From the IMG/VR virus record IMGVR_UViG_3300034375_006940, positions 1-22,585 of that record: a stretch of DNA of 22,585 nucleotides, one strand, 5' to 3'. Position numbers and translations under genes: made by a program. The notes below the pieces were generated by a model. It saw only the letters and a program-made list of their open reading frames with translations. It ran no database searches and had not been told where the DNA came from. Shown here one piece after another: positions 2,480-21,904 of this stretch (positions are counted from its first letter, which is position 1; each line of letters starts with the position of its first letter). The DNA comes from a virus.

Positions 2480-2680
2480 CTATGACCCTCTTTGTATGTC
2501 ATCTATAGTGGATGGTATTCTAAACGCTATAATAATGCAGAATATAGTAAAGAAATAGCGACTAAACATATTCCACTCATTGTACTTAAAGTTTAGTTCA
2601 ATAAGACTAACAGTAGCGTAACACATAGTAGTAGTCAACACAAATACTATTATTCCAATTACAAGTTCTTTAAATGTCAT
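2480..2680 (-). CDS. Small two-helix membrane protein (66 aa)
   Basis: Two hydrophobic segments are clear: about residues 6-27 ('LVIGIIVFVLTTTMCYATVS...') and 41-54 ('RYFFTIFCIIIAFRI'), separated by a polar loop 'ELNFKYNEWNM'. The C-terminus is polar ('STIDDIQRGS'). The ATG overlaps the ERF stop codon (ATGA), so it is translationally coupled to that gene and is the last gene before the terminator at 2410-2439. Its position in the replication operon rather than the late region argues against a classical holin. Superinfection exclusion or membrane anchoring of replication are possible. I cannot assign a family. Confidence 0.65.
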   Translation of the reverse strand: MTFKELVIGIIVFVLTTTMCYATVSLIELNFKYNEWNMFSRYFFTIFCIIIAFRIPSTIDDIQRGS

Positions 2681-3216
2681 AACGATTCAATTTTTTTCTT
2701 TTGTGATAAAGTCAACTTGTGACCCCTTAATTTTAACAACTGTTCTTTACTAACGCTACCACTCTTAATTAATTGTATAGCCTCTTGTAATTGTTCATCG
2801 GTAATACCCTCTTCTTTTGCTTTTGCTGGAGGAGTCTTTGTTACTTGTCCATCGTCATCATCATGGCCTACTAGTAGATTAAAAGCTGCTACTAACGCAT
2901 AACGCTTGTAGTATGTGATGGTTGATCCTAACTTCTGTACGTCTTTAACATCTGGAATAACCCAGGTACTAGTGACAGAGTGTGCTTCATTCTCAATATC
3001 GACAATATGTAATTGTAAATGTTGAAGATTTGTGTCAATATCGACATAACCTTGAAATGATACTGCTAACTTCTGTTCAGTTAGATGTGGTTGTAGAGCA
3101 GTCATAATGTCCTTAACGTACAGACTATAACTGTTCTTTAGGAATGGATTTTTGCCACTTTCTTTAATCCCAATCATCTTTGACTGGATGGCAGCGATTT
3201 TTTTGTAAATGCTCAT
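2677..3216 (-). CDS. erf: ERF-family single-strand annealing recombinase
   Basis: This 179-residue protein carries the ERF signature 'QKLGSTITYYKRYALVAAFN' (residues 94-113) followed by the typical acidic turn 'GHDDDDG' (117-123). The N-terminal half ('ALQPHLTEQKLAVSFQ' and the 'VTSTWVIP' strand) also follows the family pattern. ERF proteins anneal complementary single strands during phage recombination and genome circularisation and pair with a nuclease; the YqaJ exonuclease at 1-632 is the obvious partner. The Lys-rich C-terminal tail (about 135-179) resembles a small helical module seen in several annealing proteins. It lies between the small gene at 3234-3533 and the two-helix membrane protein. 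The assignment is strong. Confidence 0.92.
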   Translation of the reverse strand: MSIYKKIAAIQSKMIGIKESGKNPFLKNSYSLYVKDIMTALQPHLTEQKLAVSFQGYVDIDTNLQHLQLHIVDIENEAHSVTSTWVIPDVKDVQKLGSTITYYKRYALVAAFNLLVGHDDDDGQVTKTPPAKAKEEGITDEQLQEAIQLIKSGSVSKEQLLKLRGHKLTLSQKKKIESL

Positions 3217-3233
3217 TTGTACTGTCTTTTTGT

Positions 3234-3533
3234 TTATAACGGATGTAGTTCGATGTTATTGTGGATGTAGGCTAATAATTCCTTACAAATCATTTTATGC
3301 TTCTCATCAGTCAAATCCATAATCATATCTGTATCTCTAGTCACTTCACCAACCGTAACGTCAAATAAGTCAGCAACTCTGGTGTAAGTGTATATTGTAA
3401 GGAATCCAAGGTATAAACAACCCCTAACGATGTAATACTCTTTATCTTTTGGTGTGTAGTCGTTGAAATGCGGAGCATCCTCTAATACATCATATATAGC
3501 GTTTCTAGCATCTCTACTAAAAAGGTAAGCCAT
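3234..3533 (-). CDS. Small HTH-like protein of the replication region (99 aa)
   Basis: The frame is open from a TTG at 3602, but I place the start at the ATG at 3533 because it is preceded by a purine-rich GGGGGAG about 4 nt upstream and overlaps the SSB stop by only 17 nt. The product has a helical pattern, with 'YTRVADLFDVTVGEVTRDTD' (about residues 49-68) looking like a helix-turn-helix and a charged helical tail ending 'AYIHNNIELHPL'. The general layout (HTH, charged linker, final helix with 'YI') resembles the C-terminus of the DnaA-like protein at 4563-4919, but the identity is too low to claim homology. Function is unknown; it may be DNA-binding. Confidence 0.65.
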   Translation of the reverse strand: MAYLFSRDARNAIYDVLEDAPHFNDYTPKDKEYYIVRGCLYLGFLTIYTYTRVADLFDVTVGEVTRDTDMIMDLTDEKHKMICKELLAYIHNNIELHPL

Positions 3534-3867
3534 TCGCTCCCCCTTGATTGTTAGTTCCATCTTCTTGTGATTTACGGTTAATAACTCGTATTTGGTCAAC
3601 AATAATCTCTTTGTTACTTACTTCTACTCCTTCCTTGTTTGTGTATGCGTTTGTACTAATCTTGCCTTTAACCAGGACTAAATCTCCTACCTCCATCTTT
3701 ACATCTCGATTAAATAACTTACATGAGTGCCACTCTGTTTTACTCTGCCACTCTCCACTCTTGTCTTTGTAGTTCTCTGTAGTCGCAACAGAAAATGGTT
3801 TAAGGGTGTCTACTTTACTCTCGTAGATTTTGCCAACCCTTCCAATAAGCATTACTTGATTCAACAT
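3517..3867 (-). CDS. ssb: Single-stranded DNA-binding protein
   Basis: A 116-residue OB-fold SSB. The N-terminus 'MLNQVMLIGRVGK' matches the first SSB strand. 'FSVATTENYKDKSGEWQSKT' (25-44) and 'EWHSCKLFN' (45-53) are the diagnostic core, and 'VGDLVLVKGKIS' (60-71) matches the later strand. The C-terminal tail is short and ends GLPF, like the DDLPF-type tip that recruits partner proteins, though less acidic. It protects single strands at the phage fork and probably works with the helicase and ERF proteins nearby. Its start lies 53 nt inside the end of the upstream HTH gene, and its stop overlaps the next gene by 17 nt. Confidence 0.95.
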   Translation of the reverse strand: MLNQVMLIGRVGKIYESKVDTLKPFSVATTENYKDKSGEWQSKTEWHSCKLFNRDVKMEVGDLVLVKGKISTNAYTNKEGVEVSNKEIIVDQIRVINRKSQEDGTNNQGGANGLPF

Positions 3868-4930: not shown

Positions 4931-6178
4931 TTAAAAGTTAACAAATTCTTTTATTCTGCTATGCCTTACATCATACTCGCATCGTATCTTTTTAAAACTA
5001 TCTCCATGTCTATTCTTTGTAATATATATATCAGTTATTCCAATTAAACTCTCTCCAGTTGCTTGATCTTCCACAACATCAATTGCCTCATATCTCCAAG
5101 GGAACGCAATAAAGTCTGCATCTTGCTCTAACTGACCACTACCTCTCAAATCACTACTCTTTGGAAACATACGTCCACCCTTATCTGATTCTCTACTCAT
5201 CTGACTTATGCCTACACAACACACTTTAGTGTTTAATGCTAATCGCTTTATTTCTGTAGATAACGTACTGATTTGCTCTAAAGTATTAGGGCCAGGTATA
5301 TTTATTAATTGAATATAGTCAAACACAACCACTTTAATACCATACTTCCTAATCTTTCTCTGAACATCATCCTTAATCTGATACCACTTATTCTTATTGT
5401 CGACAATAAAGAATGGCAACTCATATAACTCTGTAGCGAACTCTGTAACAATGCCTAACTCATCTTGCGTTAAATCCCCACTAATCTGCTTCTTGTAACT
5501 TAATCCAGTAGCAACATGACATAACTTTGCCATCAACTCTGTAGTAGTCATTTCTAACGAATAAAAAAGAACTGGAACACCCATCTTACACAAGTCATAA
5601 CATTCTTGGATCATCAAAGAAGTCTTACCCATTCCTGGTCTTGCAGCAACGACATTAAACCTACCACCCCTATAACCACCCATTATCCCATTGTACTTCC
5701 TCAATTCTGTCATTACAATACCACCTTCATCTTTAAGAGTAACATTACTATTAATGTCAGCAATGTATTCTTTAAAAGAATTGTATCTGTACTCTACATC
5801 AGTATTAATATCAGCATCAATCTCATTCTGCATCCTTTCTAAAGCGATTCTAGCCTCTTCTACGCTACTTCCATTCTCTAATGACTGTAAGGCTGATTGT
5901 AAGGATAAAACCTCCTCTTGCCTCTTATATTCATTTACAAACTCCTCCGCAATAGATTTAAAGTCTGCAACAGTTGACCCAGTAAAATCTACATTGTCAA
6001 ACTTAAAGATTACATCAGCTATACTTACTTCTTGATTCTCGCTATACTTGTTAAGAATAAACTCTGCGACTTTTGGATAAACTTTAAACATTTTAGGACT
6101 CAAATATCCTACTTCCTCCAACCACGAGTTATCATCAAGGATTGTCTGGAGGATTAACTGTTCTTTCTTTTGATTCAT
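4931..6178 (-). CDS. dnaB: DnaB-family replicative DNA helicase
   Basis: A 415-residue RecA-type hexameric helicase. The N-terminal collar domain (1-120) begins with the typical 'EQLILQTILDDNSWLEEV...'. The Walker A motif is ARPGMGKTS (179-187), Walker B is VVVFDYIQL (283-291), followed by the H3 motif 'GISQMSR' (323-329), H4 'SSDLRGSGQLEQDAD' (341-355) and the arginine-finger segment 'TKNRHG' (387-392). It would unwind the phage replication fork using ATP. No primase domain is fused and none was recognised in the window, so host DnaG may serve. The gene overlaps the upstream small gene by 44 nt. All core motifs are intact. Confidence 0.96.
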   Translation of the reverse strand: MNQKKEQLILQTILDDNSWLEEVGYLSPKMFKVYPKVAEFILNKYSENQEVSIADVIFKFDNVDFTGSTVADFKSIAEEFVNEYKRQEEVLSLQSALQSLENGSSVEEARIALERMQNEIDADINTDVEYRYNSFKEYIADINSNVTLKDEGGIVMTELRKYNGIMGGYRGGRFNVVAARPGMGKTSLMIQECYDLCKMGVPVLFYSLEMTTTELMAKLCHVATGLSYKKQISGDLTQDELGIVTEFATELYELPFFIVDNKNKWYQIKDDVQRKIRKYGIKVVVFDYIQLINIPGPNTLEQISTLSTEIKRLALNTKVCCVGISQMSRESDKGGRMFPKSSDLRGSGQLEQDADFIAFPWRYEAIDVVEDQATGESLIGITDIYITKNRHGDSFKKIRCEYDVRHSRIKEFVNF

Positions 6179-8331: not shown

Positions 8332-8427
8332 TTACTTCTTTTTTATTAGTTCTTTAATTTGTTTAACAATCGCATCAATTATAGTCAATATAGTAATTAC
8401 TTTATCGACTGTTATTTTTGGCTTCAT
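8332..8427 (-). CDS. Tiny coupled ORF (31 aa)
   Basis: An ATG at 8427 overlaps the upstream stop codon (ATGA) and its TAA ends 1 nt before the next ATG, so it fits exactly between two genes. The product begins MKPKITVDKVITILTIIDAI and ends 'KQIKELIKKK', a single amphipathic helix with an Ile-rich middle and basic tail. The precise packing and the AAG/AAA-rich end argue for translation; without it there would be about a 93-base gap in a unit where genes otherwise touch. Function unknown; a membrane-active or lysis-accessory peptide is conceivable. Confidence 0.5.
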   Translation of the reverse strand: MKPKITVDKVITILTIIDAIVKQIKELIKKK

Positions 8428-8687
8428 TTGACATTCTTTAAGTGAATAATTACTTCTTCCATTACTCGTGTGTTTTTCTCGATTAACTCATTATTCTTTA
8501 TAGTATTCTCCTTATAACACTCAATAATCTGGCCCTCTAATGCAGTCAACCGATCATTCATTCTATTGTATTGATTCCAAAGCGTGTATGCCATCGCTGA
8601 CATCATCGCAAACATCACAAATACGGCAAAGCCACTTGACTTTATTACTGAATCGAAATTGGGAAACTTGTCTATAATTGTCTTCAT
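8424..8687 (-). CDS. Small membrane protein with coiled coil, possible holin (BhlA-like)
   Basis: One transmembrane segment (about residues 19-38, 'GFAVFVMFAMMSAMAYTLWN') is followed by a charged helical region 'RLTALEGQIIE...' and 'ELIEKNTRVMEEVIIHLKNV'. A single N-terminal helix with a long charged helix carrying an 'ie.Nt.vm.ev' pattern recalls BhlA/UviB-type phage holin-like proteins. It lies at the end of the structural operon, where lysis genes are often found. No endolysin is recognised beside it, which weakens the holin reading. An alternative is a tail- or envelope-associated membrane protein working with the exported protein upstream. Confidence 0.5.
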   Translation of the reverse strand: MKTIIDKFPNFDSVIKSSGFAVFVMFAMMSAMAYTLWNQYNRMNDRLTALEGQIIECYKENTIKNNELIEKNTRVMEEVIIHLKNVK

Positions 8688-8688
8688 A

Positions 8689-9429
8689 TTAATCTATTTT
8701 CCTTAACATTACCCGATTCACGCCACTATCCATAACCCAAAATGGTGTATCTCTATCCTTGTTCCAATACTCTCTAAAATCAATCACATCATCAAACAAC
8801 CCTGTTACCTTTACCCTCCGATTCGTATATAACAAGAATCTACCTTCCCTTCCGTTTTCGACTTCTTCTCCACGTTGAGTTGTTTCCGTTATCCGCATAA
8901 ACTTGTCCACATTCAACCATATTATATCGCCACCATTAATCCTTGCAATCCATCTACCTTCGAATTGATTTCCGTACATTTCCCTTGTCTTGACAAAGAA
9001 TCCGTATCCTAACATATCTCGGATTATGTTGTTGACAGGTGCGTATAAGGATGCAGATTTTTCTCGTTTTTTTAACCTACTTGCATCTATGTAGTTATCT
9101 TCTTCGGCTCTATGTATAAGTTCAAAGGCGTATTCGGCTACTTCACTTGAATCCATTAATTGGTCGATTACGTTTATTTCGTATTCGTTTGTATTCGGTA
9201 ATCTTCTACCTGTGTAAACAACCAATGATTCAATCGTATCTATTACGGTTACGGTTTCGATTAAATTGCCTAAACTATCATATACTTCTTGCTCAGATTC
9301 GTTGTAGGTCTGAACCGTTTTGTAGTAGATTGTATCCGGTATCTGACCATTTATTGTTTTTGTCATTAAGACTATAATTAGAAACATTACTATTTCCAAT
9401 GCTTGTTTGAATGTGAATAAAGTTTTCAT
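8689..9429 (-). CDS. Exported protein of unknown function (246 aa) in the fibre cluster
   Basis: The N-terminus has a positively charged start and a hydrophobic core ('ALEIVMFLIIVLMTKTINGQ', residues 10-29), consistent with a Sec signal peptide cleaved near INGQ or an N-terminal anchor. The mature part is mixed: Thr/Val-rich beta-like stretches (about 35-75), a helical Glu/Lys-rich part (95-125), then 'GRWIARINGGDIIWLNVDKF' and 'REGRFLLYTNRRVKVTGLFD'. I recognise no catalytic motif or family. The DNA is rich in CpG compared with the tape-measure gene, like the adjacent fibre gene, which suggests the two entered together. It starts just after the S74 fibre gene ends (1 nt between). Confidence 0.65.
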   Translation of the reverse strand: MKTLFTFKQALEIVMFLIIVLMTKTINGQIPDTIYYKTVQTYNESEQEVYDSLGNLIETVTVIDTIESLVVYTGRRLPNTNEYEINVIDQLMDSSEVAEYAFELIHRAEEDNYIDASRLKKREKSASLYAPVNNIIRDMLGYGFFVKTREMYGNQFEGRWIARINGGDIIWLNVDKFMRITETTQRGEEVENGREGRFLLYTNRRVKVTGLFDDVIDFREYWNKDRDTPFWVMDSGVNRVMLRKID

Positions 9430-9430
9430 A

Positions 9431-10825
9431 TTAGTTATTTTCTAAAATTGTTAATCTATTGCTTAAATCTGATATTAGTGCTTTTAATTGTTCTATTTCG
9501 TTTGTTTGCGTTTTTATTATGGCTTGTTGTTCTTGAATCGCTTTGGTGAGTACCGAAATTAAATCGTTATAATTCATAATCTTCATTCCATCGTGCCTTG
9601 TTCCAATTACATCAGGAATAACTTTTTCAACTTCTTGTGCGATAAATCCGTAGCTTTTCTTTTCGTTATCCGCATTTGATATTAATCGGTAACTAACAGG
9701 ATTCAATTCCATAACCGCATCTAATCCTTTATCTGATGATTCAACATCTTGCTTTAATCTTATATCGGATACACCAGCGAATACGGCAGATATAATCGAA
9801 TCCGAAGCGTATATTTTACCTGTTACTTCAAGGTCGTAAGATGGCGAATCCGTACCTATACCCACATCGCCTTGTAACCTTGTTTTTGTTATAGATGAAT
9901 TACCTAATACTACGCTATTCGAACCCAAACCCCTTGCTTCCGAACCGATTACGATTTGATTTTCTTGTGCATCCGCCAATGGTCGTGCATCGTAACCGAT
10001 GAATACGGAGTTGTCGCCATCTGTGTTGTTTGCACCTGTGCTTGTGCTTCGACCTGCAATTTGTCCAATCGATGTGTTTTGATTGCCAGTTGTATTCTCT
10101 TGTAATGCGTTAGCCCCAATCCCTACGTTTTTACTTCCAGTTGTATTCTCCTGTAATGCTCGAGACCCAATCGCTATGTTTGCATATCCAGTGTTATTTT
10201 CAAATAAAGCTCGAGACCCAATCGCCATATTTTCATATCCACTTGTATTATCGTATAATGCATAATACCCAATTGCTGCGTTATTATTTCCTTCTGTGTT
10301 AAAATATAATGCTCTATAACCTACGCCCACATTCCTATTATCACCCCCATCATCAATTCTACCAGCATTTTCTCCAATAAATATACTATTACCTGTTGCA
10401 TCCAAATCCAACTTGCCATCTATTTCGACATCCGTACTAAACGTCTTTGCACCTGTTATCGTTTGAGTTCCAGCAACTGTAACGTAATCTGATAAATCTC
10501 CTTTCGTAGCTATAACCGTTGTTGTGTCCACTTTCAAAGGCGAACCAACCGTACCATCTCCTGTAATCGTAACGCCATCCGATAGTACCGAACTAATTAT
10601 ACTGGATGTAGCTGCTAACGTATCTCCTCCCAAAATCAAAAACGTATCCGCTCCGTACGATATAAATAAATCCCTTGAATAAACCATTCCAGAATCTGTT
10701 GGAGAAGAAATCAAAACCGAACCTGTAAGCGAATCCTTTGTAATCTGATTTAGTTTGATTCTGGGCGATTGGGCAAAGGTTGTGACCGATATTAATAATC
10801 CGAATATAATTAGTATTTGTTTCAT
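9431..10825 (-). CDS. Fibre/adhesin-like protein with S74 autoprocessing chaperone and signal peptide
   Basis: The 464-residue protein opens with a signal peptide-like segment ending 'TTFAQ' (1-19). It continues with a fibre element 'QTITGAKTF' (121-129) and six 17-residue repeats of the pattern 'N.aIG..AL..NttG' (about 165-266), as in trimeric YadA-head-like adhesins. The S74 domain begins near residue 350: 'VSDIRLKQD' gives the Ser-Lys dyad (S353, K358, the expected five-residue spacing), followed by 'LNPVSYRL', 'YGFIAQEVEKVIPDV' and 'NYNDLISVLTKAI', then a coiled coil (about 430-462). Such chaperones trimerise the fibre and cut themselves off. The role is probably host recognition. A signal peptide on a tail fibre is unusual. 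Confidence 0.88.
   Translation of the reverse strand: MKQILIIFGLLISVTTFAQSPRIKLNQITKDSLTGSVLISSPTDSGMVYSRDLFISYGADTFLILGGDTLAATSSIISSVLSDGVTITGDGTVGSPLKVDTTTVIATKGDLSDYVTVAGTQTITGAKTFSTDVEIDGKLDLDATGNSIFIGENAGRIDDGGDNRNVGVGYRALYFNTEGNNNAAIGYYALYDNTSGYENMAIGSRALFENNTGYANIAIGSRALQENTTGSKNVGIGANALQENTTGNQNTSIGQIAGRSTSTGANNTDGDNSVFIGYDARPLADAQENQIVIGSEARGLGSNSVVLGNSSITKTRLQGDVGIGTDSPSYDLEVTGKIYASDSIISAVFAGVSDIRLKQDVESSDKGLDAVMELNPVSYRLISNADNEKKSYGFIAQEVEKVIPDVIGTRHDGMKIMNYNDLISVLTKAIQEQQAIIKTQTNEIEQLKALISDLSNRLTILENN
10028..10333 (-). repeat. Six 51-bp coding repeats (17-residue YadA-head-like units)
   Basis: Residues 165-266 of the S74 fibre protein comprise six units of 17 residues starting at N165, N182, N199, N216, N233 and N250, each like 'NxAIGxxALxxNTTGxx'. 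At DNA level neighbouring units are similar but diverged. In-frame recombination between them could change repeat number and fibre length. Confidence 0.8.
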
Positions 10826-10826
10826 T

Positions 10827-12842
10827 TTAATTGCATTGTATTGTTATAGCATTTGTTATTGTCCTTACACTTCCACTATATACTGGTCTTTGCATTTTAA
10901 TATATTTAGAAGTAGATGTTATTGTTTCTGGATATGTATAAATTCCTCCAGTAGTATTTCTAATTAAAGAAAGATATCCAGTACCAGTAACATATTCAGA
11001 TATTAAATTACCATTATTAGTAAAAGTTGAGCCACTTATAGAACCAAAAATAACTGGACTTGATCCATAATAATTTTCAGCATAAAAAGATTGTGTTGTT
11101 TCTATTATCTTACATCCAATATATTCTGTTGGTATTGTCATTATTACTACGCTATCAGACGCTTGGTCTCTTATTGTTGCAGTTAATGTGTGTAAAGTGG
11201 TTATTGCATCTAATTCAATTACTCCACTTGAGTTTAGCGTTAACACTTGACCTTGCTTACCAGTAATTGCCTCATCCACATCAAACACATAATTATCCAA
11301 TGTAAACTCATTATTAGTCATGTCGTATTTAATATTAGTATTTAGCCTAACATCATTTGCTCCAATTCCGTTACTAATTAAAGCTGGATAATAACTACCA
11401 CTTGATATATATTGAACATCTACTGCTGCTGAATTTGATATAATTCCTACAATAGTATCATTAAATGTTTTAACACCATCTATTGTTTGATTAGTTGTAG
11501 TTAACACCGCAGTTCCTTCTAAACTTTGCAATTCAATCTCTCCGCTACTACTATTTAATCCTAATAGGTAACCATTCTTTCCAGTTGTATCTTGGTCAAC
11601 GTTGAATGTGTATTTGTTAGAGTTCAATTTCTTCATCTGACCATCTCCAATTACTGCCGTATCATCTCCTAATCCAGTCGCATTAGAACCTATCACAATT
11701 GAGTTGTCATTTTGACTTGTAACCGTTTTTGCGTTTGTACCAATTACAACTGCATTAGACGCTATCACATACGATGGAGATAAGAAATAGTTAGCCTTAC
11801 TGCCTATGATAACATTGCCACCAAATTCTGTATTCCTTCCAGCAAAATACCCAATAACAACATTGTCATTAGCATAATTCTCTGTAAAATATGCTTCTGT
11901 GCCTATAATAACGTTTCTTGCAGTAGTATTATCTTGCCGTATGCCATTACCAGCAAAATAGCCTAAATAAGTATTTCCTCCATCTGTAATATCTAATGCA
12001 CCATTTATACCAACATTGTTTTGAAATGTTTTTACTCCGCTAATAGATTGGTTTGTTGTTGTCAATACTACTCCATCTAATGATGGTATATCTGTTCTTA
12101 TCGCTAAAGCAGTATCGCTTAATTCTGTTCTATCCACATAATCATTCCAATACGCCTCATCCCCTAAATTAATAATCCCACTACCATTCGCATTATTCCC
12201 TTTTATTACCGTACCCAACCTTTGAATTATAACTCCTTCAGCAGTCGGTTTAGTAGATGTATAACCACCGCCACTTGCCACATACACTTCCGCACCATCG
12301 GCTAATCCAGTCGTATTTACTTGCTTGATATGACCTTTAATTAATCCTAATCCAACCGAACCAGATGCTATATCTTCTCCAGCAATTACTACGACTGGCA
12401 TCTTACTCGGATCGGATGCGTCTGCTGGAGCAACTGACCAATAGTTACCTTGAACTCCAGTAGCATACAATGGCGTACCTTTACTAATTAAGGATACAGT
12501 TCCATTATATATCGAATCCTCAATTGAAAGCGACTCAATAAAAATTTGTCCATTAACTTGATTAACATCAATACCTAATCCAGCATCGATTGTCCGCAAC
12601 AGAATGGGAATAATGGATTGGTCAGTAATTACAGTATCCGTACCAATCAAAAACGTACTGTCAGCAGAACGGAATCGCAATATGTTGTTAAAAGCTAAAT
12701 TTGAATCTAATCCAGTCACGATAAATTGCCCAGAATCCGTACCTTGTTTTAGTTGGTACAGTTCAAACCTAGGATAATTCTGACAACTAACTATAATCGG
12801 AATTAATAAACTAAATACTACTATAAATTGCTTAATACCCAT
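10827..12842 (-). CDS. Large fibre/tail adhesin-like protein with lipoprotein-type signal (671 aa)
   Basis: The N-terminus 'MGIKQFIVVFSLLIPIIVSC' has a hydrophobic core ending at C20 with a weak lipobox (I-V-S-C). Residues about 121-227 ('KGTPLYATG' ... 'GEDIASGSVGLGLIKGHIKQ' ... 'GAEVYVASGGGYT' ... 'RLGTV') match a module often found in tail fibres of marine and other phages. Then follow 'VLTTTNQSISGVKTF' (259-273) and a near copy 'VLTTTNQTIDGVKTF' (446-460), with YadA-like 'NVVIGYFAGRN' units between. The C-terminus (about 550-671) looks like a small beta domain, perhaps receptor-binding, without an S74 chaperone. The start overlaps the four-repeat gene by 22 nt. It is probably a fibre; its cellular location is uncertain because of the signal. 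Confidence 0.8.
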   Translation of the reverse strand: MGIKQFIVVFSLLIPIIVSCQNYPRFELYQLKQGTDSGQFIVTGLDSNLAFNNILRFRSADSTFLIGTDTVITDQSIIPILLRTIDAGLGIDVNQVNGQIFIESLSIEDSIYNGTVSLISKGTPLYATGVQGNYWSVAPADASDPSKMPVVVIAGEDIASGSVGLGLIKGHIKQVNTTGLADGAEVYVASGGGYTSTKPTAEGVIIQRLGTVIKGNNANGSGIINLGDEAYWNDYVDRTELSDTALAIRTDIPSLDGVVLTTTNQSISGVKTFQNNVGINGALDITDGGNTYLGYFAGNGIRQDNTTARNVIIGTEAYFTENYANDNVVIGYFAGRNTEFGGNVIIGSKANYFLSPSYVIASNAVVIGTNAKTVTSQNDNSIVIGSNATGLGDDTAVIGDGQMKKLNSNKYTFNVDQDTTGKNGYLLGLNSSSGEIELQSLEGTAVLTTTNQTIDGVKTFNDTIVGIISNSAAVDVQYISSGSYYPALISNGIGANDVRLNTNIKYDMTNNEFTLDNYVFDVDEAITGKQGQVLTLNSSGVIELDAITTLHTLTATIRDQASDSVVIMTIPTEYIGCKIIETTQSFYAENYYGSSPVIFGSISGSTFTNNGNLISEYVTGTGYLSLIRNTTGGIYTYPETITSTSKYIKMQRPVYSGSVRTITNAITIQCN

Positions 12843-13939
12843 ACTATTGTTATTTTTTCTCCACTTCTTGGAATAAAAGCAAAAGTTATACCTCCACTAA
12901 TATAATCATGTGAACTAATAAAACTATTCGATATATACTGCCCATTCCTATATATCATAATACTAGATAAAGCCTCTGGTAATTTACCCTCATTCTGTGT
13001 AACTGTAAATGTAGGTGTTGTGCCATCAGCAGTAAACTCTTCTTGGAACATTGCAAAAGCATTACTATTCGTAGGAGTAACTGTTTCTTCAACAAACCAA
13101 ATTAAGGTAATATCATCCCCACTATCTGGAGCAAAAGTTAAAGTAATAGTTCCACTACTTGTGTTTATACCAGTTATATAGTCGTTATTAATATGTTGAC
13201 CATTCCTCATTAACAAAATAGCATCTTTAGTTTTAGCCAACTCTCCTCCATTCTTTGTAACAGTAAAAGTGGTTTGTGTTCCATTAGCAATAAACTGCTC
13301 TTGAATTATTTTAACTGATTGAGGTAAATTAACAAACCAAACCGCAGCTATTGTATCATTACTACTTGGAGTAAAGTTTAAAGTAAACTGACCTAAACTT
13401 GGACTATATGTAGTAACTTTCTCGTAATCTAAAAAGATGCCATTAATATATAGGAACAACTCTTGTTTTCGCCTAGGTATTAACCCTCCATTTTTTGTTA
13501 CACTAAATGTAGAAGAAGAACCATCTGCATTAAATATTTCTTGAAAGATATTACTGTCAACTGTAGTCGTTTTCACAAACCACACTACACTAATTCTATC
13601 ATCTAAATCTGGAGTAAACGTTAATTCAAATGTACCATTAACTGAATCAAAAGAAGAAATGTAAGTGTCGTTTAACAATAAACCATTTCTATAGACATTA
13701 ATATCTGTACTTACCTCTGATAACTGACCTCCATTCTCTGTTACTGTATATGAATTACTTATCCCATCAGCAGTAAATACTTCTTGGTATATAAATCCTG
13801 GTGTTTGTGGTGTTTGAACTACTTCATTATCAGTAACAACCGCACCACCAGCAGACGCACTAGATCCTACTGCACCATAACTTGGAACAAACCTATATTC
13901 TTTAGACAAATAAACTAGTGACTTCTCTGTAAAACTCAT
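12821..13939 (-). CDS. Tail-associated protein with four ~71-residue tandem repeats
   Basis: After a short N-terminal part (1-50), the protein is four repeats at residues 52-122, 133-203, 213-283 and 299-369. Consensus elements are 'QE.FtADG...tFtVT.NGG.L' at the start, 'i..yrNG..i.n.yi' in the middle and 'G..tltF.P..gD.i..vWFV' at the end. The pattern fits compact beta domains arranged like beads and is often seen in phage baseplate or fibre-base proteins. The last repeat ends 'IVWVLSNL' as the protein terminates. It begins at the same base where the distal tail gene ends (1-nt overlap), so it is probably a tail tip or fibre-attachment component. Exact role unknown. Confidence 0.75.
   Translation of the reverse strand: MSFTEKSLVYLSKEYRFVPSYGAVGSSASAGGAVVTDNEVVQTPQTPGFIYQEVFTADGISNSYTVTENGGQLSEVSTDINVYRNGLLLNDTYISSFDSVNGTFELTFTPDLDDRISVVWFVKTTTVDSNIFQEIFNADGSSSTFSVTKNGGLIPRRKQELFLYINGIFLDYEKVTTYSPSLGQFTLNFTPSSNDTIAAVWFVNLPQSVKIIQEQFIANGTQTTFTVTKNGGELAKTKDAILLMRNGQHINNDYITGINTSSGTITLTFAPDSGDDITLIWFVEETVTPTNSNAFAMFQEEFTADGTTPTFTVTQNEGKLPEALSSIMIYRNGQYISNSFISSHDYISGGITFAFIPRSGEKITIVWVLSNL
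12833..13786 (-). repeat. Four tandem coding repeats (~240 bp period)
   Basis: These encode the four protein repeats starting at QEVF, QEIF, QEQF and QEEF, with offsets of 81, 80 and 86 residues. Protein similarity is clear. At the DNA level similarity is visible around each repeat start but has decayed, so the duplication appears old. Confidence 0.75.
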
Positions 13940-15867
13940 TAAGCGTCCTCTTTTATTTTATACCACACACCTCTTACTCTATCTGCTGCTAAATCATAAG
14001 TGCCTCCAAAAAACACCCAATATCCTCCATCATAACTAATTGCATAATGTGGTTGAAGAAATTCAGTATCTGGATCGTTCATAACAAACGATGTTTCCAT
14101 GAACTTTCGAACTGGAAGTAATTGTCCTTTTATAACCTCATTACACAATAACTGACTTATATTCTTTGCATCTCCATTATTACCTACCTTCCATCCGTTC
14201 TCTGTAATTACCCACTCATCAGAATCATTCTTAACCTCTATATGCCCAGGACTATTTAAGTTAGGGCCATCTCCTATTATAGTAGTAGTTTCAAATGTTT
14301 TATACGCTTTATTGTCGTTGTCTGCTTGAAATCTAATTATATCGTTTTGGTCAGTAAAAAAGCCAGTATGTATATACTGCATAAAAGTGTTTGCTACTTG
14401 ATAAGTTACAGTATAATAATCTTCTAAAACTGGTACTGAACCACCTTGCAATATTGAAGCTGCTGGGTCAATATAGTTTTCTATATACACTCTGTAAAAC
14501 TCAAACTTTACAGTCATGTCTCCATCAGTAGGTACATTAGGAATAATAATCTGTATGTTCTCTATTTTCTCTGGTTGATTTTCTGTTTCTACATATTGAT
14601 AAATGTAATAATATCCAGGAGTTGTTGACCATCTTTGATTCCTTAATCCATCTTCTTTTACCTTACTTCTCTGCCATGTAAAGTCGTTTTGGTAATAATG
14701 TGTCGCACTTCCATCATCTAATGTTATTTGTAACCTATATATAACGTAATGAGGTTGCCATTCACTAGTACCTACAACTTCTGTAAAACTTGTATAATAA
14801 GCAAGTGTAAAATCAAACTGTATTATTGACTCAAAGTTATTACTTGCAATATCTTCAACATCATAAGTACCCTCAAAATTGTAGTCCCAATATGCTCCAC
14901 TCAATAAGTTTCTTGTTGCTATATGTTCATACTCAACCCTTGCATATTGTAATGGACTAAAAAACTCAAACACACTACCACCCTCTCTGTATATTGGAGT
15001 AGTAGTAGGATTAGTTTGGTCATGTAAAATACTATAATCTTTAGTTGCACCACTTAATGAACCTAAAATAGCGTAATTATACTCATATACAGAGTTAGCA
15101 TTTAAGTATTCGTTTATTTGTGTAATATAGTAACCAGTAGCACTACTTATAATCCTACAACCAAATGCTTTGCATATCTCTTCCAATACCTCATAGCAAT
15201 TTCTATAAATATAATTACCCTTTGTATCTTTATGAAAGAACGCTCTGTGCGGAATCCTGGCTTTAGTTAAAACTGTATTTGTGGAGGAATAAGTATATTC
15301 TTGTGAGTGCCAATTAATAACTACACTAAATAGTGGGTCAGTAAAACTTGTGTAAGCATATATTACACTACCCAATTTCTGTAAAACATTATTAATGTGT
15401 TGGAAGATTGTAGCTTTTCCAGTATACGGAACACCATCATTATTATAATCTATTGTCTTTAGTGTATTTAAACCATCCTTTGCTCTTAAAACAAAAGTAT
15501 AGCCTACATCTAACTTAATATCTTCAATAGTGACTAAATCGACTAAAACATATCCAACCCATTTATAAGTAGATTCAGAACTTAATTGGTTAGTTCTTAC
15601 ATATACAAAATAACTATCATCGTAACTGCTAACTAAATCTTCTACAAAAGAATTTAATGTAGAATTATTAATTAACATACTAATTGATGCCTCACTACTT
15701 GTAATAGGACTAAACCTATTATCCTCATCTCCTCCAACGTCATATTTTATTTGTAAATCTTGTGTAGTAAATTCTGTTGGACTACCAACAAAAGTAGATT
15801 GATGAATCTCTATTATGTATTCTGCTCCTTTATCGCTATAAAATGTACTGTTAAATTTTACTGGCAT
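13939..15867 (-). CDS. Distal tail / tail-tip protein following the tape measure (642 aa)
   Basis: The N-terminus 'MPVKFNSTFYSDKGAEYIIE' with 'FTTQDLQIKYDVGGDEDNRF' and 'SPITSSEASISMLINN' matches a large tail protein I recall directly after the tape measure in Bacteroidetes siphoviruses and prophages. 'NNVLQKLG' and 'CYEVLEEICKAFGCRIISSA' (about 220-240) resemble the helical element of tail-tip hub proteins. It is beta-rich with no membrane segment or signal peptide. By position it should form the distal tail platform (Dit/Tal-like) to which the repeat and fibre proteins attach. Its start overlaps the tape measure stop by 1 nt. Family assignment rests on context and pattern rather than catalytic motifs. 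Confidence 0.75.
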   Translation of the reverse strand: MPVKFNSTFYSDKGAEYIIEIHQSTFVGSPTEFTTQDLQIKYDVGGDEDNRFSPITSSEASISMLINNSTLNSFVEDLVSSYDDSYFVYVRTNQLSSESTYKWVGYVLVDLVTIEDIKLDVGYTFVLRAKDGLNTLKTIDYNNDGVPYTGKATIFQHINNVLQKLGSVIYAYTSFTDPLFSVVINWHSQEYTYSSTNTVLTKARIPHRAFFHKDTKGNYIYRNCYEVLEEICKAFGCRIISSATGYYITQINEYLNANSVYEYNYAILGSLSGATKDYSILHDQTNPTTTPIYREGGSVFEFFSPLQYARVEYEHIATRNLLSGAYWDYNFEGTYDVEDIASNNFESIIQFDFTLAYYTSFTEVVGTSEWQPHYVIYRLQITLDDGSATHYYQNDFTWQRSKVKEDGLRNQRWSTTPGYYYIYQYVETENQPEKIENIQIIIPNVPTDGDMTVKFEFYRVYIENYIDPAASILQGGSVPVLEDYYTVTYQVANTFMQYIHTGFFTDQNDIIRFQADNDNKAYKTFETTTIIGDGPNLNSPGHIEVKNDSDEWVITENGWKVGNNGDAKNISQLLCNEVIKGQLLPVRKFMETSFVMNDPDTEFLQPHYAISYDGGYWVFFGGTYDLAADRVRGVWYKIKEDA

Positions 15868-18800
15868 TATCTATCCCTATTTCTTTTTGCTCGTTCTACA
15901 GATAATAATAAATCCGATCCACTCAACCTACTAGTCAATACCATGTTTCCTCCTCCAGTTTCTGCCAATATTCCTTTTAACTTATCCAACGGAGCAACAA
16001 CCTCTGGGTTTCTTCTATTTGTACCTTGTCCTTCTCCAATTAACGCATTGACTGGGCCATAGACTAATCCACCGTTAGCAAATGGTAAACCCTCTCTAAA
16101 TAACTTAAAGAAATTACCCTTTGTCCCTACTCCAAGACCTACTCCAAGTGCTGGAAATATAGTTCCAATTAATGTAAGTAAACCAGCAAAGATTAATGCT
16201 TTAGCAATTGCCTTTCCTATTTCAACAACTAACTTCTTTATAGACTGCCCAATAGCACTAAAAAAGTCATTTTCTTGAATTGTTTGATTTAATTCAATTA
16301 TTCTATCTTGTACATTCTGTATCTCACTTGCACTTGCTTCTCCACTCGCTCTTAATAATCTCAATTTCTCTGTTGCATCTACTAATTCTTGTTTTGCCTC
16401 TGCTCTTAATGTAAACGCTTCACTTATTGTATCTACTAATCCACTTGAAATACTACCAGCAAATCTTTTTATTGCATCTATGTTACTTACTAAAAACTGA
16501 TTTACTTTATTTAATCCGTTATACCACCTGGTAAAAGATTCCTCTGTTTGTTTTGCTGACTCTTGTGCTTTTGCAGTTAAATCAGCCATCTCTTTTGATC
16601 CTTTCGCAACCTTTACTAGTGTGCCATTTACTTTCTTATACTCAAAGTCTAACTGATTAGCATTACTTACAACTTCAAGTGATGGCTTTTTAAGGTTATT
16701 GAAAGAAGTAAATAAGTTATCTATTACAGTAGGGTCTTTAAGGTATAATGGTTTTAAAGAATCTCTTAAACCGTCTAATTGTTGCTTTAGTTTGTCAATT
16801 TTGCTTTGTGCTGCACCAACCTCTAATGCTTCTTCTAATGCACCTCCAACCGCCTCTATTTGCTTTTTAATATTCTCTACACTATCCTCTCCTAATATCG
16901 TTTTTCTTTTTTCTAGTAACGCTAACTCTTCATTTAATCCTTTAAAGACTTTATTTACCTTTTCTGCGGACTCTAATGCTACTAACTTCTGTCTTAATGC
17001 CTCTAACTCTACTTGTAAAGTTTGTATAACATTTGTTTGGTCACGCAACTCTTCATTAGCAAACGCATCTGTTATAGCTTTCTCAACATCCTTTATCTGA
17101 TTCTTTACAATATCTACCTCATCAGTACCTAATATCTTACCTAATTCAACTTGACCAGTTAATGCCGTTTCTAAATTAGTAAATAACTCCTCAACAGAAG
17201 TAACAAGTTCTTTAATACTGTTTTCAAAATTACTAATAGCTTCTTGTTCTCCAAGTGTTGCTATCTCTTCATTTATTTTATCTAAATTCTTTTCTAATAA
17301 GTTTAAACTACTATCAGTTTTACCGCCTAAATCTTGTAATGACTTTGTGAATTGAGAACCAGCTACTGCACCAAATTGTAATCCAGACTTAAAGTTTTCT
17401 GTAGTTACAATTGCAGACTCCATGCTTAATTTTGTCTGCCTTATATCTTCCTTTAACCTCTGTTGCTCCTCTCTTAATATTCTTAATTTCTCTACATTAG
17501 CTATTGATTTTAAATAATCATCTTGTGCTTTTGTTAACCCTTCTACTCCTGATTCTAATAACTTTACACTTGAAAATTGATTATTAGTAATTTCATTTAA
17601 TTCATTTAAAGCATCTTGTTTTTGTAATACTGAAGAAGTCGAATCCTCAATTACACTAATGTATGTTGATATAGAATCTCTTGCCTCATCATGCTTTTTC
17701 TTTGACTCTTCATTTGCTTTATTTATAGCATCTAAACCTCTATTCGCTTGAGCAACACTATTCTTAAAGTTGTCATAAGCAGCCTTACCTAATGTAACCG
17801 CACCAACAACTGCAATAAGTGGTAAAAGTAAATTACCAGCAATTACATTAAAAGCAATCATACTTCTAGTAGCAGTCGTTGTTGTTGCAGTTAATATTGT
17901 TAATGCTCTTCCTAATGTTTGAAAATACTTTACAACATCTAATGATGTTAATCCTAAAGTAATCATCGTTCTATACAACACTCTTATACCTTTCGTAAGA
18001 GTACCTACTATATATACTACTGGGCCAATAGAGGCTAATATCAATCCAAAATTAACTATTGATCTTCTCTGTTGCTCACTCAATGATGTAAAGAAGTTAG
18101 TTAATCTATCTATTTGATTTGTAATATTGCTTAATAAATTAGGTAAGTCAAGTGTTTCTGATATTAATTGACCTAATTTACTTGCAGCAATTTGTGTATT
18201 AATCCCAAAAGTTTCAATAGCTTTTGCTAATGATATTTGTACGTTTTGGAACTGTTCATTAGAAGCAATTGCTCTAGTAAGTCTATCTACAAATTCATCT
18301 GCACTAATATTAGCCTCTCTTAAACCTTCAGCAGTAACTGTACCAAATTCTTCTTGTAATACTTTACCAATCGCTGGAATCCTTGACTTAATAATCCTTA
18401 AATCTTGCTCCAATACTCTACCAACAGATAATGCCTGGGCAAACTGTCTTGTTATTTCCCCAATATCCTCCGCTTGAGATCCACTAACAGTAGCAGCAAT
18501 ACCTAACTGTTTAATAGTTTCTCTTGCTCTATCAGCACTAATACCAACCGCTTGTAATTGTAATGAGGCAGAAGCAGCACTCTTTAAATCTAAAGTAGTT
18601 CTTGCATCTCTAACAACATCTAATAACTTCTCTAATTCTTCTGCTCCAGATGTAGATGTGTCTGCAAAAACGTCTAAACCCTTCTCTAGTCTATCAAAAT
18701 CTGCAAATGTCTTAACTGCTGCTCCAGCAGCAAGTCCTAATGGAAGTGTTAAGTTAGTAGATAAAGTTTTACCTAAATCACGAGCATTATTGCTAAAACT

Positions 18801-18893
18801 AACTAATTGGCGTTCAACTTTATTGAACTTGGCAACAAACTGTTTGTCATCAAGTCCTAGTCGTATTAGTAAATCTCGAAAGTTCCCTGCCAT
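15867..18893 (-). CDS. Tail tape measure protein (1008 aa)
   Basis: The N-terminal 240 residues match the tape-measure domain: 'IRLGLDDKQFVAKFNKVERQ' (10-29), 'LTLPLGLAAGAAVKTFADFD' (49-68) and the 'SAASASLQLQAVGISADRAR...TIKQLGIAATVSGSQAEDIG' region. Hydrophobic segments lie near 275-300, 350-372 and 898-925, and the middle (about 380-870) is long, charged and coiled-coil-like. The protein runs the length of the tail during assembly and sets it; at about 0.15 nm per residue a tail near 150 nm is expected (rule of thumb). The chaperone pair lies immediately upstream, and the ATG lies 44 nt inside the end of its frameshifted part. A siphovirus is indicated. Confidence 0.93.
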   Translation of the reverse strand: MAGNFRDLLIRLGLDDKQFVAKFNKVERQLVSFSNNARDLGKTLSTNLTLPLGLAAGAAVKTFADFDRLEKGLDVFADTSTSGAEELEKLLDVVRDARTTLDLKSAASASLQLQAVGISADRARETIKQLGIAATVSGSQAEDIGEITRQFAQALSVGRVLEQDLRIIKSRIPAIGKVLQEEFGTVTAEGLREANISADEFVDRLTRAIASNEQFQNVQISLAKAIETFGINTQIAASKLGQLISETLDLPNLLSNITNQIDRLTNFFTSLSEQQRRSIVNFGLILASIGPVVYIVGTLTKGIRVLYRTMITLGLTSLDVVKYFQTLGRALTILTATTTTATRSMIAFNVIAGNLLLPLIAVVGAVTLGKAAYDNFKNSVAQANRGLDAINKANEESKKKHDEARDSISTYISVIEDSTSSVLQKQDALNELNEITNNQFSSVKLLESGVEGLTKAQDDYLKSIANVEKLRILREEQQRLKEDIRQTKLSMESAIVTTENFKSGLQFGAVAGSQFTKSLQDLGGKTDSSLNLLEKNLDKINEEIATLGEQEAISNFENSIKELVTSVEELFTNLETALTGQVELGKILGTDEVDIVKNQIKDVEKAITDAFANEELRDQTNVIQTLQVELEALRQKLVALESAEKVNKVFKGLNEELALLEKRKTILGEDSVENIKKQIEAVGGALEEALEVGAAQSKIDKLKQQLDGLRDSLKPLYLKDPTVIDNLFTSFNNLKKPSLEVVSNANQLDFEYKKVNGTLVKVAKGSKEMADLTAKAQESAKQTEESFTRWYNGLNKVNQFLVSNIDAIKRFAGSISSGLVDTISEAFTLRAEAKQELVDATEKLRLLRASGEASASEIQNVQDRIIELNQTIQENDFFSAIGQSIKKLVVEIGKAIAKALIFAGLLTLIGTIFPALGVGLGVGTKGNFFKLFREGLPFANGGLVYGPVNALIGEGQGTNRRNPEVVAPLDKLKGILAETGGGNMVLTSRLSGSDLLLSVERAKRNRDR

Positions 18894-19599: not shown

Positions 19600-20040
19600 T
19601 TAAACTACAGTTCCTACAGTTACTGCACCACTTACTTCAATTGTTCCATCAAAAGCAACTTCAGTATCAGCAGTAGCAGTTTGACTTAATGCAGTAATAT
19701 AACCACTACCGCTTAATTGTACATCTCCGCTAGTAGAAGTAGCCATTACCCAATAAATCTGTGTTCTTCCATTAAAGTAACCCAATAATCCACTCATATT
19801 ATCTTCTGATGCAGTTTCATCATATCTGACTAAACCACTAAAAGAAATTGAAGCAGACTTTGTTTTAGGGAAGATTTCTCTCCATCCTCCACTTCCACTA
19901 TCTTTTGTTGTAATATCAGTTACGTCTAAAGAAAATGAAATTGAAGATTCAGTAGCGTGAAAGATTTCTATCTCACTACCTTGTGTGCTACTTAAAGTAA
20001 GCCGTAGCAATGTTCCATCTATAAATCCAGTACTTGGCAT
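19600..20040 (-). CDS. Major tail tube protein
   Basis: This 146-residue beta-rich protein ('GTLLRLTLSS', 'FHATESSISFSLDVTDITTK', 'SGSGGWREIFPKTKSASISF', residues 28-66) follows the pattern of phage tail tube proteins of the TP901-1 major tail type, where 'tkDsggw.e...g.ksasis..gl' is diagnostic. It ends with a Ser/Thr/Val-rich stretch. Its place between the tail terminator and the assembly chaperones is the standard siphovirus order. Hexameric rings of it would form the tube through which DNA passes. The ATG start is 11 nt after the previous stop. Strong by motif and context. Confidence 0.85.
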   Translation of the reverse strand: MPSTGFIDGTLLRLTLSSTQGSEIEIFHATESSISFSLDVTDITTKDSGSGGWREIFPKTKSASISFSGLVRYDETASEDNMSGLLGYFNGRTQIYWVMATSTSGDVQLSGSGYITALSQTATADTEVAFDGTIEVSGAVTVGTVV

Positions 20041-20965: not shown

Positions 20966-21308
20966 AGTTAATGCACTCTAATATCATATAATCCTTACTC
21001 TCCTCTCGTATTGCTACTATATTAAATATGTTCTGTGAAGAAGCCATCGTTAAATCCACTAACCTCATTTCTGTCGACAATCCAGTTCGTCTACGGATTC
21101 TATAAAATACAGATGTTGTCGCTACTTTTTGTTGTTCTTGCGACTTTTCATCCGTTCTCGTAATACGGAAATCAGCTTCAGCATATAAGGTAATATAGTC
21201 GCTAAAAGTGAAATCAGTTTCGCCATAAGAGTTCCTTGTTATCGTTCTTTGTTGAATTTTAACTTTACGGTTAAGGTTGCCAATCTTTTCACTTTTTAAA
21301 TACCTCAT
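20955..21308 (-). CDS. Phage head-tail joining protein
   Basis: A 117-residue protein with the typical opening 'IGNLNRKVKIQQRTITRNSY' (residues 8-27) and 'TLYAEADFRI' then 'ATTSVFYRIRRRTGLSTEMR' (about 63-82), matching the head-tail joining family related to SPP1 gp16 ('i.G.Ldrri.iq......d.yG......w......waev', then '....fr.ry...i...m.i'). It closes the portal channel and connects head to tail. The ATG overlaps the connector's stop codon by 1 nt. The DNA here is visibly richer in CpG than the tape-measure region, a possible sign of a separate history. Confidence 0.85.
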   Translation of the reverse strand: MRYLKSEKIGNLNRKVKIQQRTITRNSYGETDFTFSDYITLYAEADFRITRTDEKSQEQQKVATTSVFYRIRRRTGLSTEMRLVDLTMASSQNIFNIVAIREESKDYMILECINYEY

Positions 21309-21904
21309 CAGTAGCCTATTCCCATTCCGTACTTAATATTGTCCAAAATAACTCTACTTGCAGTTGGAAGTGTAGCCAAGTGATCCGTTCTATTCTCGTA
21401 ATACGTTGCAATTAAATATCGCATCGCTTGAAGAATATTCCCAGGTACATCAGAACCAGCATCTCCATAACCAGCAATATAAGTAACGGTTAAAGCATTA
21501 ATCTCATCTTGAATTGAGGGCCATGTATAACCGTTCTTTAATCCAATCCGAGCAACTGGTCTATGTGTGTCTACAACATACTCACTAGCACTCCACGTCT
21601 GACTATATCCATCTGTATCAATATAAGATATACTTGTTACACTTTGAACTGGATTTACTCCAAGATTAAAGTTTTGTCTAAGTTGATAATCCCTAACTTC
21701 AAAGTAATCCCACTTCTCTTCTATTGTCTGTGTAATTAATGCAGTCGATAGATACGTTTCTATATATTGCCGAACAGAAGTAATAATGGCAGTAATAAGC
21801 GTATCATCATCTGTATAGCTATCTTCTACTTTTAAATAGTTTTTAGCCTCACTTAAAGTGATTGGTTCAGTAGATGGTACACTTATTACTTTAAAAAATG
21901 CCAT
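21308..21904 (-). CDS. Head-tail connector protein (gp6/gp15-like)
   Basis: The 198-residue protein starts with 'STEPITLSEAKNYLKVEDSY' (11-30) and 'DDTLITAIITSVRQYIETYL' (about 33-52), the hallmark opening of gp6-like connectors ('vtLaeaK.hLrvd...ddd.li..li.aA..~ie...'). 'TVTYIAGYGDAGSDVPGNIL' (about 139-158) and 'AMRYLIATYYENR' follow the later family pattern ('vtY.aGy......vP..l..Ai..lva..YenR'). It forms a ring under the portal. It lies directly after the small head-associated gene, overlapping it by 1 nt (TAATG). A confident family call. Confidence 0.92.
   Translation of the reverse strand: MAFFKVISVPSTEPITLSEAKNYLKVEDSYTDDDTLITAIITSVRQYIETYLSTALITQTIEEKWDYFEVRDYQLRQNFNLGVNPVQSVTSISYIDTDGYSQTWSASEYVVDTHRPVARIGLKNGYTWPSIQDEINALTVTYIAGYGDAGSDVPGNILQAMRYLIATYYENRTDHLATLPTASRVILDNIKYGMGIGY

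Follow-up and report, generated by a model that had tools for sequence, protein, structure and literature searches.

Predicted Bacteroidota-type export signals on three consecutive tail-end genes of a viral genome fragment

Three consecutive genes at the end of the tail region of a viral record from a marine phage, here called A, B and C, begin with N-termini that resemble Sec signals and are directly followed by Gln. The explanation considered best is that A and B, and probably also C, are tail-end adhesin or fibre proteins of a Bacteroidota siphovirus, which would be made as Sec precursors and would nevertheless end up in the particles. As a whole, this explanation is given an even chance, and its parts differ in strength: based on the sequence comparisons described below, the predicted export signals are very probably real in A and B and likely real in C.

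Gene order and predicted export signals

The window, i.e. the whole stretch of DNA analysed, comprises a whole viral record of 22,585 bases and is probably a genome fragment. Every named gene lies on the minus strand. In the order of transcription, a head-tail connector, tail tube, tape measure, 642-aa tail protein and four-repeat protein are followed by A, B and C:

21308-21904, minus strand: head-tail connector
19600-20040, minus strand: tail tube (Pfam 4.1e-12)
15867-18893, minus strand: tape measure protein (3.3e-16), no signal, used as control
13939-15867, minus strand: 642-aa tail protein, no signal, used as control and as anchor for finding relatives
12821-13939, minus strand: four-repeat protein, no signal, used as control
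10827-12842, minus strand: gene A, 671 aa, with signal peptide, N-terminal module, decoration-like beta domain, BppL_N shaft segments and variable C-terminus
9431-10825, minus strand: gene B, 464 aa, with signal peptide, N-terminal module, repeats, S74 domain and coiled coil
8689-9429, minus strand: gene C, 246 aa, a conserved orphan with an N-terminal signal or anchor
8424-8687, minus strand: small holin-like membrane protein adjoining C (PHROG holin E 6e-4)

Downstream of the holin-like gene, on the same strand as the structural genes and after them, follow the replication genes for a DnaB-type helicase, SSB, an ERF annealing protein and ThyX (4931-6178, 2677-3867, 629-1246). Neither an integrase nor a recognisable endolysin was noted in this fragment.

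All ORFs of the window were subjected to a rule-based signal test, which comprises a basic n-region, an uncharged hydrophobic 8-mer, small residues at -3 and -1, and Gln at +1. Exactly three of the 36 ORFs passed, namely A, B and C. The reading frames, strand, coordinates and signal-like N-termini before Gln, which had been proposed from the sequence alone, were confirmed. Shuffling of the first 45 residues resulted in 0.083 matches per 36 ORFs, and three matches were reached in none of 2000 sets. Together with the position counts in related loci given below, the shuffles rule out a chance origin of the three signals. Gln directly after the signal corresponds to the Q-rule of Bacteroidetes for substrates of signal peptidase I (SPI) (PMC5837995, PMC10653852), and according to the rule-based test A, B and C all show the Sec signal, the small residue at -1 and the Gln at +1 of such substrates. 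The predicted signals are as follows:

12783-12842, minus strand: signal peptide of A, MGIKQFIVVFSLLIPIIVSC before Gln, SPI-type site, Gln invariant in 12 orthologues
10772-10825, minus strand: signal peptide of B, MKQILIIFGLLISVTTFA before Gln, kept in 7/7 orthologues
9346-9429, minus strand: signal peptide (or anchor) of C, ending in VLMTKTING before Gln, Gln kept in 6/6 orthologues

Conservation of the signals in orthologues

Relatives of A, B and C were taken from viral contigs. Throughout the resulting 25 sequences of the three families, Gln at +1 is invariant (A 12/12, B 7/7, C 6/6) and the residue at -1 is small. Among the orthologues of A, the signal varies in frame from 18 to 26 residues, the residue at -1 is Cys, Ser, Gly or Ala, and the mean pairwise identity amounts to 0.37 in the signal compared to 0.74 in the first 50 mature residues. 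On account of this variation in length, -1 residue and identity, the N-terminus of A behaves like a cleaved signal. For B, identities of 0.68 in the signal and 0.91 in the first 50 mature residues were determined. Furthermore, in both A and B a start codon is absent between the signal and the conserved module that follows it, so that any version made without the signal would also be missing a piece of the module. The evidence is weakest for C, whose signal (identity of 0.62) has not diverged further than its mature start (0.53). The signal of C is 28 residues long, and its orthologues carry Lys at -2. Hence C is the least certain of the three, and its N-terminus may be an uncleaved anchor.

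A weak lipobox (IVSC) had been noted in A, according to which A would be a lipoprotein cleaved by signal peptidase II and tethered to the membrane. The window and its closest relative indeed carry Cys directly before Gln in a lipobox-like context. However, the ten other orthologues of A show Ser, Gly or Ala in place of Cys while retaining the Gln, and the signal of the paralogue B ends in TFA before Gln. Since the residue at -1 varies and the Gln is constant, the site is better explained as an SPI site and the lipobox as an accident of two close sequences. With the Cys present in 2/12 orthologues, the assignment of A as a lipoprotein was rejected and is regarded as very improbable.

Architecture of A and B

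The following domains were assigned in A and B:

12603-12782, minus strand: mature N-terminal module of A (QNYPRFELYQL...DSGQF), the most strongly conserved segment of the protein and a homologue of the B module
12168-12578, minus strand: beta domain of A, like trimeric capsid-decoration and phi29 head-fibre base proteins (AlphaFold, Foldseek, tblastn)
12021-12077, minus strand: BppL_N segment in A, a domain found N-terminally in lower baseplate / receptor-binding proteins, the best of two (Pfam PF18338, above cut-off)
10583-10771, minus strand: mature N-terminal module of B (QSPRIKLNQITKDS...), homologous to that of A
9608-9769, minus strand: Peptidase_S74 / chaperone-of-endosialidase domain of B (Pfam PF13884 1.3e-15; PDB 6f45 2.7e-5)

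The mature N-terminal modules comprise about 57 residues and match each other in profile comparison with 94.8% and an E of 4.9e-8. In both proteins this module is the best conserved part, and the C-termini are mosaic and variable. A and B combine a conserved N-terminal foot, a variable modular C-terminus and fibre domains, as is characteristic of tail fibres or receptor-binding proteins. The BppL_N region of A additionally gave weak PDB matches (TP901-1 BPP, receptor-binding protein).

For the beta domain of A, the comparison with decoration and head-fibre base folds resulted in a Foldseek probability of 1.00 and E values of 0.003-0.05 at moderate model confidence. For this domain, tblastn revealed related sequences in Flavobacterium phage immuto and in cyanophages, where they form part of fibre-like proteins. 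The matched folds belong to capsid decoration and head-fibre base proteins, and the gene sits among tail genes, so that A may be located on the tail or on the head. In one related locus (L156, 5974-9886), A is present as a 1070-aa variant (QYPRIILKQLEK), B is missing and C lies directly after A.

The C-termini of A, B and C were also searched for sorting domains of type IX secretion (T9SS) cargo, which gave no NCBIfam match even at E 1. Due to the lack of such a domain, a reading of the three proteins as T9SS cargo was ruled out.

The S74 domain of B and the likely host

The C-terminal S74 domain of B scored 57.8 bits compared to a curated cut-off of 22, and the matched structure, PDB 6f45, is a long tail fibre. 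The Ser-Asp pair is conserved in the alignment, which is a sequence observation on the putative autocatalytic release.

The sequence-only reading had considered an S74 domain on an exported protein especially odd. In a survey of 79 cellular S74 genome loci, nearly all from Bacteroidota, 61 showed a Q-rule signal, 6 another signal and 5 none, while the start was cut off in 7. Since 61 of the 72 proteins with intact start carry a Q-rule signal, export of S74 proteins is normal in Bacteroidota, and the supposed oddity disappears.

Compared to cellular Bacteroidota proteins, the S74 domain of B reached up to 84 bits, whereas at most 52 bits were obtained with the other phage S74 domains compared, the cellular set being picked by similarity and the phage set being small. 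In a tree, the S74 modules of the window clade are scattered among the cellular ones, mostly with weak support and with few forks resolved. Because of the composition of the two sets, these data go as far as suggesting that the C-terminal S74 modules of the window clade were exchanged with the cellular gene pool of Bacteroidota. To this extent, the earlier proposal of fibres captured from host adhesins receives partial support, namely for the S74 modules.

The Q-rule signals, the kinship of the window tape measure to that of Cellulophaga phage phi39:1 (3.3e-31) and the Bacteroidota-like S74 domain point to a likely host within the Bacteroidota. A genome scan for a prophage or host with the 642-aa tail protein gave no match.

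Position of the signals in related viral loci

Q-rule signals were mapped in 80 viral loci that have related tape measures. Of the 653 ORFs that precede the tape measure or occupy one of the two places directly behind it, none passed the test (0/545 upstream, 0/69 at the first and 0/39 at the second position). At positions three to six after the tape measure, 23/97 ORFs passed; these counts include near-identical contigs and are not independent, and most positives belong to the window's own clade. Positives beyond this clade are phi39:1 and the locus L207, and a separate search revealed L063 as a further lineage. The lack of signals in the upstream tail genes, which the sequence-only reading had described for the window, was thus found there and across all 80 loci. 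In L063 (5407-10754) and L207 (14052-18564), the tail genes end with clusters of Q-rule signal proteins, among them ones of 654 and 998 aa.

Among the records examined, some of them covered in part, no Q-rule signals on tail proteins were seen for crAss001, phi14:2, phi46:1, Helsingorvirus, Cbastvirus, P2559Y, P12024S, P12002L, 6H, B40-8, 11b and immuto. As other flavophages and crAss001 do without them, the trait is lineage-specific, and since many flavophages lack signals on their tail proteins, fibre function does not generally depend on export.

Virion proteins of cultured Cellulophaga phages

The GenBank records of the Cellulophaga siphophages phi10:1, phi19:1 and phi39:1 flag virion proteins detected by MS/MS (depositors' notes, no peptides). 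Ten tail-end proteins carry such notes (phi10:1 gp091-094, phi19:1 gp101-104, phi39:1 gp25-26), which are not ten independent cases because homologous or almost identical proteins occur among those of phi10:1 and phi19:1. Eight of the ten passed the Q-rule test (phi10:1 gp091-094, phi19:1 gp101-103 and phi39:1 gp26), phi19:1 gp104 showed a signal without Gln, and phi39:1 gp25 was signal-like by eye only. From the other MS-listed virion proteins of the three phages, 0/30 passed. In phi10:1, gp091-095 (L027, 15948-22979) form five consecutive Q-rule signal genes, four of them MS/MS-listed and the fifth pectate-lyase-like; this region offers a cultured system in which the export of phage adhesins could be examined.

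The earlier choice lay between captured adhesins and display on the infected cell. A third reading, as virion components, is missing from it and has the best support, namely these MS/MS listings of relatives. By analogy with the three cultured flavophages, for which the MS/MS listings exist, A and B are likely virion components, while for C this is a possibility of slightly less than even weight. Cleavage of the signals in A, B and C is a prediction. Against the explanation as a whole, envelope vesicles co-purifying with virions could account for the MS/MS detection, and Flavobacterium phage immuto carries a related domain on a protein without a signal.

Alternatively, the exported proteins could stay with the infected cell, in the periplasm, the outer membrane or on the surface, and serve adhesion, receptor masking or exclusion without being part of the virion. 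The Q-rule signals as such would fit this, as would the similarity of the S74 modules to exported cellular Bacteroidota proteins and the Q-rule proteins of unknown role in Porphyromonas gingivalis phages (excerpts of PMC10367356). On the other hand, the late-gene position directly after the tail genes, the fibre architecture, in which the foot is conserved and the tip varies, the MS/MS notes on such tail-end proteins in three cultured phages and the lack of any T9SS C-terminal domain family up to E 1 argue against it, and display on the cell alone is regarded as unlikely.

The hydrophobic N-termini could also stay in place uncleaved, anchoring fibres that are put together in the cytoplasm or tagging them for assembly. 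This would agree with the general knowledge that tailed phages assemble in the cytoplasm, and the MS/MS notes speak to the presence in particles, not to processing. However, Gln at +1 and a small residue at -1 recur in three window-clade families as well as in phi10:1, phi39:1, L063 and L207, and a fit to the signal peptidase rule of the host phylum would be surprising for an assembly tag. In addition, the signal of A evolves fast compared to the module after it. Retention of the N-termini is therefore considered quite improbable.

Gene C

For C, no known family, no relative outside the clade and no fibre domain were found, and its low-confidence model gave no structural match. This lack of a fibre domain or fold match, the adjoining holin-like gene downstream and the long signal with Lys close to the site would fit a protein that is anchored by its N-terminus and acts in the envelope or as an accessory to lysis; such a protein would belong with the lysis genes after it and would not be a fibre. 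Such a role is a serious candidate, although somewhat short of an even chance, since the order A-B-C is kept in several loci with invariant Gln, and C stays beside A in L156, where B is absent. In another relative (L007, 13141-17089), the place after C that is taken by the holin-like gene in other relatives is occupied by two long fibre-like ORFs without signals.

Possible route to the particle

Since tailed phages are thought to assemble inside the cell, virion-listed proteins with export tags are puzzling. According to the favoured explanation, A and B, and probably C, would be made as Sec precursors, and host SPI would remove the signal at the Q-rule site, which exposes an N-terminal Gln open to cyclisation by the host. 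The conserved N-terminal module would be the foot by which the protein binds the particle, the mosaic C-terminus would bind the receptor, and the S74 domain of B would serve as folding chaperone. Until lysis, the exported proteins would be kept in the periplasm (or envelope); at or after lysis, they would attach to particles set free from the cytoplasm. Sec export and incorporation in particles can be combined either by docking outside the cytoplasm or by assembly in the cytoplasm from protein that escapes an inefficient export. Of these, we favour docking at or after lysis, tentatively and at a little less than even chance. Fibres and decoration proteins of other phages can join finished particles in vitro. 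A two-compartment assembly is not described for tailed phages in the literature searched.

That some Bacteroidota tailed phages send receptor-binding proteins via the host Sec system and add them outside the cytoplasm at or after lysis is a tenable idea that falls somewhat below probable. Adhesins in the virion that bear a phylum-specific export signal would imply either that assembly has a second site or that the fibres have a further function before lysis, such as receptor masking or cell coating. As the cultured phages phi10:1, phi19:1 and phi39:1 carry such proteins, the question is directly testable. Furthermore, a Q-rule signal after the tape measure could serve as a sequence cue for adhesins in uncultured Bacteroidota phages.

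Comparison with known systems

With the described Q-rule SPI substrates of Bacteroidetes, A, B and C share the basic n-region, the hydrophobic core, the small residue at -1 and the Gln at +1. While those substrates are cellular periplasmic, outer-membrane or secreted proteins, A, B and C are phage late genes. Q-rule signals in phages are already known from Porphyromonas gingivalis phages, for which five such genes of unknown function are described and proposed to modify the host outer membrane; in the excerpts of that source, no link to fibres or virions is drawn (PMC10367356).

B resembles S74 tail fibres in its C-terminal S74 domain followed by a coiled coil, whereas the S74 fibres of Pelagibacter phage HTVC112P and of SPO1 have no signal peptide. 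The fold of the beta domain of A is shared with the phi29 head-fibre base protein gp8.5 and trimeric capsid decoration proteins; unlike these, A belongs to a group of tail genes and additionally carries a signal, a module, a shaft and a tip.

Compared to the tail-end proteins of Cellulophaga phages phi10:1, phi19:1 and phi39:1, most of which carry Q-rule signals, A, B and C show the same place after the tape measure, and phi39:1 and the window have a tape measure family in common. In contrast, no homology of A, B and C to the signal-bearing proteins of these phages was detected, and the pectate-lyase-like members of the Cellulophaga phages are absent from the window. In the literature searched, neither a paper on exported tail fibres in virions nor a described mechanism for extracytoplasmic docking was found. 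Compared to this literature, the new observation is that of Q-rule signals on fibre-type genes, which are conserved in orthologues and coincide with MS/MS-listed virion proteins of cultured flavophages.
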